From Metabacillus halosaccharovorans (GTDB lineage Bacteria > Bacillota > Bacilli > Bacillales > Bacillaceae), in assembly GCF_002019635.1 (NCBI RefSeq), contig NZ_KV917371.1, positions 1,780,001 to 1,844,000 on the forward strand: DNA of 64,000 nucleotides, written 5' to 3'. Under the pieces are notes generated by a model, which saw only the letters and a program-made list of their open reading frames with translations, searched no databases and was not told the origin of the DNA. Of the stretch, positions 28,268-28,490 are shown piece by piece. The position numbers and the translations under genes were made by a program. Each line of letters begins with the position of its first letter. Position 1 is the stretch's first letter.

Positions 28268-28490
28268 TCACTCTAAGTTCCTTAATTTTGTAGACCTGTT
28301 TTTAAATTTCAGTACATGTTGCACTGCTGCTACATCAACTTTAACGTAACAGGAACAGCTGCTTCATTATGATCTAATCAGAGTTTTTCTAGTAATTTAG
28401 CAATCTCCAGCTTTTTCACAAAATAAAATACGAACCTGGAGATTGCTCACAATAACAGAGATTTATATCAAACAGATTAGTTTTTTACAC
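28268..28490 (-). pseudogene. leuA: Degraded N-terminal remnant of leuA (2-isopropylmalate synthase)
   Basis: Read on the minus strand, the ilvC-leuB gap contains recognisable pieces of the LeuA N-terminus in correct order and spacing, spread over shifted frames. FD, two codons, L, three mutated codons and EQSPG stand for FDTTLRDGEQSPG; after a shift, KKLEIAKLLEKL, a TGA, and LDHNEAAVP stand for [22 protein letters not shown]; after another shift, VDVAAVQHV and KNRST stand for the GDFxAVQ region. Codon 2 is TAA and the start is GTG overlapping the end of ilvC. About 65 of roughly 515 codons remain; the rest is deleted up to the leuB ribosome site. This is identification by eye against known LeuA sequence, not by search. 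Confidence 0.82.
28399..28447 (-). other. 12-bp perfect inverted repeat just after ilvC
   Basis: AGCAATCTCCAG (28399-28410) and CTGGAGATTGCT (28436-28447) are perfectly complementary with a 25-base loop. Both arms lie in the leuA remnant (EQSPG and LEIA codons). No T tract follows on the minus strand, so it is not a typical terminator; it could cap the ilvC mRNA 3' end. Confidence 0.7.

Follow-up and report, generated by a model that had tools for sequence, protein, structure and literature searches.

The gap of 222 bases between ilvC and leuB on the minus strand of the window (the whole 64,000-nucleotide stretch of Metabacillus halosaccharovorans DNA analysed here, from a genome of 5.4 Mb designated G000) is, with a probability of roughly 0.93, what is left of the leuA gene of the ilv-leu operon after an internal deletion, the loss being tolerated by way of an unlinked LeuA2 as the most likely source of 2-isopropylmalate. 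The cluster is arranged in the order T-box, ilvB, ilvN, ilvC, gap, leuB, leuC and leuD, with ilvE upstream of the T-box. The T-box leader (31953..32204, minus strand) precedes ilvB, the first gene of the cluster, and has an apparent CUC (Leu) specifier when read by eye. On the same strand, ilvC (28477..29502) overlaps the start of the dead leuA with its terminal codons, leuB (27142..28254) is preceded by a ribosome-binding-site-like AAGGGGG at 28268-28262, and leuC (25596-27029) and leuD (24978-25571) follow downstream in the operon. Two further T-box leaders and a lysine riboswitch (4794-5036, 63661-63900, 45167-45349) are found in the window, while no Rfam family reached its gathering score inside the gap.

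Identity and decay of the leuA remnant

In local alignments against intact Metabacillus leuA the gap scored 101-116 with all three references, a z of ~30, where 500 shuffles per reference gave means of ~22 and a maximum of 42. The alignments run in order through leuA codons 1 to ~71 and take in the terminal codons as well. With leuA from three other genera the scores were 22-24 (0/3 references above shuffle level), and the match is therefore detectable only with close relatives. The gap with its short flanks matched the ilvC-leuA 5' and leuA 3'-leuB sequence of congeners in 24 of 41 genomes, G000 included. An intact leuA of 509-516 codons lies between ilvC and leuB in 13 of the 21 Metabacillus genomes, G000 being counted among the 21, and the other eight have leuA-less gaps of 143-254 bases. 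Beyond the genus, in a sample of 80 regions from the 161 genomes with an IlvC match (mostly the closest, some skipped), leuA adjoins ilvC in 75 of the 80 neighbourhoods. Three of these 75 leuA genes (L215, L228 and L249) are frameshifted and could be either pseudogenes or sequencing errors. Elsewhere in G000 no protein scored over the cut-off of the type-I profile TIGR00973, the best, at 203.9 bits, being LeuA2.

These findings confirm at the sequence level what a preliminary description of the window had proposed, that the gap is a remnant of the operon leuA, collinear with it across frameshifts and syntenic with the intact gene; the sequence that matches it in relatives is leuA itself, not a separate stretch beside an intact leuA. 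The idea that this is ordinary intergenic DNA resembling LeuA by chance agrees with the shuffle-level scores against other genera but has next to no probability left, being rejected by the shuffle-tested congeneric alignments, which lie in the syntenic position and are collinear from the start of leuA on, and by the series of remnants in G000, G019, G003, G008 and G012. The remnant is like the type-I leuA of Bacillales ilv-leu operons (TIGR00973) in its place between ilvC and leuB, in its start inside the ilvC end and in its collinear codons and tail, and unlike it in that the body is deleted, stops and frameshifts have accumulated and no protein is encoded.

The remnant (28282..28490, minus strand) begins where intact genes have their GTG start and runs to the counterpart of their stop codon, a TAA ending at 28282; it comprises codons 1 to ~71 and the last 4 codons. 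The GTG with which leuA begins in the congeners lies within the final stretch of ilvC (VRKINLFDTTLRDGEQSPG in 12 of 13; VRRIS... in G009), and in our reading of the alignments the GTG equivalent at 28490-28488 is directly followed by TAA. The EQSPG block pointed out earlier (codons 15-19) is indeed present on the minus strand as GAGCAATCTCCAG at 28436..28448, preceded by the near-LRDG codons CTC TGT TAT TGT where the relatives have CTC CGT GAT GGT/GGC, and the second block, LEIA (codons 28-31), is CTGGAGATTGC at 28400..28410. A TGA replaces the glycine codon in LEKLG, which the relatives read as GGA, GGC or GGT. There are at least two stops and two net one-base losses, one between the EQSPG and LEIA blocks and one after VPVT. 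The terminal leuA codons (GTCTACAAAATTAA) are kept at 28295-28282. At 209 bases against 1,551 in the intact 516-codon gene, the remnant lacks ~1,340 bases or 447 codons, close to the ~450 estimated in the preliminary description, which held up as to the nature of the gap, the breaks in the reading frame and the age of the loss; the surviving tail codons, the unlinked leuA2 and the complementarity of the EQSPG and LEIA blocks go beyond it. The likely deletion junction, read by eye, is ACAGGTCTACAAAATTAA (28282..28299, minus strand). In the relatives the sequence around codon 71 has GGTCTT and the tail has AAGTCTAC. GTCT thus occurs at both ends, and this short repeat may have guided the deletion.

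Loss history and the probable LeuA2 substitute

The gap of the sister genome G019 is 97% identical to that of G000, and the more distant G003 has a related, shorter stump of ~41 leuA codons, with which the G000/G019 remnant groups. This sharing indicates that the loss is old, as had been proposed from the advanced decay alone. In G012 and G008 codons 1 to ~73 are joined to the last 8; G012 is little decayed, and the remnants of G000 and G019 are more decayed than it is. No leuA sequence is recognisable in the gaps of G018, G007 and G017, and outside the genus one leuA-less locus (L250) has a 5' stump of ~34 codons. The deletion ends of G000/G019 and G012/G008 (L005, L006, L106, L102) are nearly the same despite apparently separate losses, at codon ~71 in one lineage and ~73 in the other, with the last 4 and the last 8 codons kept, respectively.

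In a tree of the operon genes, the eight leuA-less genomes fall in three places (G018 with G007/G017; G008 with G012; G003 with G000 and G019); all the trees used for this history come from this single locus. G005, whose leuA is intact, clusters with G000 and G019, the order within that trio having a support of 0.05, and its operon genes are 1.2-5.0% different from those of G000. Judged by the leuA2 locus, G005 corresponds at 100% to Metabacillus niabensis EaN21-8 and G019 at 100% to Bacillus sp. J37, and G000 is ~96% identical to each of these two strains. The simplest reading is that a single old loss took place in the G000/G019/G003 group and that leuA later came back into G005 by recombination, an apparent regain of the gene by M. 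niabensis EaN21-8. Over the initial 240 bases of leuB, G005 has 35 differences from G000 and 28 from G003, against 16 between G000 and G003 and 9 between G000 and G019. The divergence of the G005 leuB (L099) has an edge ~240 bases into the gene, likely that of the recombination tract that returned leuA. A tree of the remnants, from a short alignment with long branches that excludes G007, G017 and G018 for want of recognisable leuA sequence, joins G003 to G000/G019 without G005 (ultrafast bootstrap 91). It is improbable, given the leuB differences and this remnant tree, that recombination instead brought a decayed allele into G000 and G019, with G005 as the unbroken lineage, even though G005 groups with these two in the operon tree, in a trio whose order is unsupported. 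The leuA of G005 is sister to that of G020, a grouping that vertical descent would produce too and that fits both histories. Under a single old loss followed by a return of the gene to G005, an internal deletion of ~1.3 kb would have taken out the gene body, probably in the ancestor of G000, G019 and G003, and point changes and small indels would have accumulated afterwards, an order of events in which the first breaks could also have preceded the deletion.

What stands in for the lost enzyme in G000 is most likely LeuA2, a protein of 570 aa encoded on contig C2, unlinked to the ilv-leu cluster. It scores 793.9 bits against the subfamily profile NF002991 (cut-off 455) and 693.0 against the equivalog profile TIGR00970 (cut-off 697.4), just under, as do all 20 LeuA2 proteins of the genus. 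The long type of 2-isopropylmalate synthase occurs in yeast and Corynebacterium. The G000 protein resembles this long type, described by NF002991 and by TIGR00970 ('leuA_yeast'), in passing the NF002991 cut-off, and differs in being under that of TIGR00970; unlinked and with its own T-box, it would be a replacement and not the ancestor of the remnant. A T-box over the Rfam cut-off lies directly upstream of leuA2 in G000, LeuA2 is found in 20 of the 21 Metabacillus genomes and a T-box at all 20 of these loci, and all 20 of the T-boxes have AACUC at the specifier place, read by eye as CUC (Leu), as does the ilv T-box. On profile scores and T-box context, LeuA2 is most likely a working 2-isopropylmalate synthase in G000 that, under control of its own T-box, would feed 2-isopropylmalate to the intact leuBCD.

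All eight leuA-less Metabacillus genomes have LeuA2, and for this reason redundancy with LeuA2 is the likely cause of the loss, as far as gene content can indicate; G014, the sole genome without LeuA2, keeps its operon leuA. Since LeuA2 is present in 20 of the 21 genomes, the link between LeuA2 and the loss lies beyond within-genus statistics. Outside the genus, five of the 80 ilvC neighbourhoods are leuA-less, in four genomes with LeuA2 and one with a type-I LeuA elsewhere. Extra unlinked type-I LeuA-like proteins over the TIGR00973 cut-off are encoded in G005, G017, G009, G007 and G010 (L056, L057, L058, L059 and L088). Two of these genomes, G007 and G017, are leuA-less, and the extra protein is another possible substitute there.

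Predicted stem-loops in leuA and its remnant

On the mRNA strand, shortly after the ilvC stop, the remnant is predicted to form a stem-loop, because the EQSPG and LEIA blocks are each other's reverse complements and would pair as a perfect 12-bp RNA stem. The segment 28395-28455 has a predicted fold of -21.9 kcal/mol (z -5.1), which none of 200 shuffles equalled. The possibility of a terminator in the gap was considered and rejected, a scan of 28100-28700 for GC-rich stems (loops of 3-8) with a T run behind them having found none; by eye, the hairpin is followed by TAAATTACTAG, without a T run. The complementarity and the predicted hairpin suggest that the survival of the two blocks may not be passive. 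In G000, G019 and G003, a base that no intact relative has at that place occurs in 0 of 24 arm columns and in 21 of 69 of the remaining columns (Fisher p 0.0012 for the three genomes together, 0.0094 for G000 alone and 0.059 for G003 alone), in a test that was post hoc, the arms having been picked after the pairing was noticed, and that used three related sequences.

The chances are about even that the hairpin has survived passively, its EQSPG and LEIA codons being complementary by accident in this clade and its arms not yet reached by decay. The same perfect arms are already present in the intact leuA of G005, G010 and G016, so nothing new had to evolve, and the leuA-less gaps are unremarkable among other gaps: their 13 z-scores, some of which cover part of the ilvC end, average -2.67 against -2.03 for 74 other same-strand gaps (p 0.12; p 0.18 with nine lineages). 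These 74 are what remained of 91 gaps once redundancy was removed, each 100-330 bases long and bounded by roughly called ORFs; they come from the window, L095-L114 and L115-L163, and may include terminators and T-boxes. Compared with the 13 intact leuA starts, the eight leuA-less gaps of the genus gave p 0.0017, but this sets non-coding against coding sequence, and the proposal of exceptional hairpins in leuA-less gaps was dropped after the control. The leuA-less gap L253 has no hairpin (z 0.04). Another, L252 of G031, carries an inverted repeat whose arms lie far apart, TGTTCAAAAAG / CTTTTTGAACA, and which is perhaps a small mobile element. What speaks against a purely passive leftover is the unchanged arms and a folding signal at synonymous sites of intact leuA.

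That signal appears when protein and codon usage are held fixed. In the 13 intact Metabacillus genes the best folding is at nt 33-99, the same place as the window hairpin, with a mean z of -2.63 and the next at -1.61, although other windows of these genes also beat synonymous shuffles (e.g. -1.37 at nt 300-375). In 72 leuA genes from other Bacillales, the codon tests leaving out the 3 of 75 neighbourhoods with frameshifts (L215, L228 and L249), nt 99-165 gives the strongest signal among 44 windows, with a mean z of -1.68 (se 0.17) and the next at -0.72. Here a stem can be drawn at codons 43-49 (EAGFPAS) in which changes on both sides keep the pairing: the Ala/Pro wobble positions pair in 50 of 72 genes against 31.3 expected, and the Glu/Ala positions in 60 of 72 against 50.4. 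Among 3,312 wobble pairs at distances of 2-8 codons, these two variable pairs take covariation ranks 1 and 2, and they stay ahead of all others when the set is thinned to 56, 41 and 35 less redundant sequences, but at 35 the lead is very small (3.25, 3.23, 3.22) and the third variable pair of the stem ranks only 103 to 333. The window hairpin, at codons 15-31, is distinct from this covarying stem. G012 and G008 have a perfect 13-bp version of the codons 43-49 stem (hairpin 2); the two genomes differ in 0 of its 26 arm columns and in 20 of 178 columns outside the arms (p 0.083). The counterpart of the window hairpin (hairpin 1) is damaged in G008. In G018 and G007/G017, where leuA is unrecognisable, a hairpin after ilvC is shared, with paired changes that by eye look compensatory. 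In 64 further leuA genes, of which 60 are from the wider phylum (60 of the 94 listed LeuA matches) and four are paralogs, the nt 99-165 signal was absent, both with ilvC upstream (19) and without (45). With the signal absent in both contexts, this control does not inform on a tie of the signal to ilvC. The four Metabacillus paralogs, left after the removal of five loci (four duplicates or near-identical copies, and with them the G007 copy), give z values between -0.4 and 1.3 in the nt 99-165 window.

A tentative proposal, less probable than passive survival, is that the surviving part of leuA has been selected as a structured RNA, a stem-loop after ilvC acting as a 3' stabiliser or processing boundary for ilvC mRNA; this complements the identification as a leuA remnant and does not replace it. 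The predicted fold, the unchanged arms, the two leuA folding signals with the top-ranking pairs, and the hairpin shared where leuA has gone argue for it. The post hoc choice of arms in related sequences, the gap control, the distinctness of the window hairpin from the covarying stem, its third pair and the minimal lead at 35 sequences, the other folding windows of Metabacillus leuA, the damaged hairpin 1 and the p 0.083 of hairpin 2, L253, and the 64 genes without the signal argue against it. With the same reserve, a stem-loop formerly embedded in the leuA 5' coding sequence might now be free of coding. Mader et al. 2004 reportedly described a stable 1.2-kb ilvC mRNA of Bacillus subtilis with a predicted 3' stem-loop. 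Stem-loops ~30 to 135 bases past the ilvC stop would fit that size, the Metabacillus ones being sequence predictions whose identity with the B. subtilis stem-loop is not implied. That the ilv-leu mRNA of B. subtilis undergoes processing is described in passages of PMC2784878, PMC3997798 and PMC6460267, and it is from this processing and from the position of the stem-loop that we infer a putative role as ilvC mRNA 3' stabiliser. The titles and passages retrieved by a literature search (also PMC8877110, PMC6123439 and PMC5794164) place no RNA element inside Bacillales leuA.

Significance of the leuA losses

At three points in the genus, and in 5 of the 80 neighbourhoods sampled from the order, the operon is intact except for the missing leuA, and in one case the gene has apparently been regained. 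This is an ordinary kind of event, the loss of a gene where another enzyme is able to take over, in an unusually complete series, and the Metabacillus losses provide a clean natural series for the dissolution of an operon through redundancy. An RNA function of the surviving leuA stretch, as folding predictions would have it, is possible. The widest form of this idea is rather doubtful: that the first ~50 leuA codons in Bacillales double as RNA stem-loops ending and protecting the ilvC messenger, and that a stem-loop outlives the dead leuA, either preserved where the stump has changed least, as in the window, or formed afresh from new sequence. If it were true, the 'pseudogene' would be a working piece of RNA.
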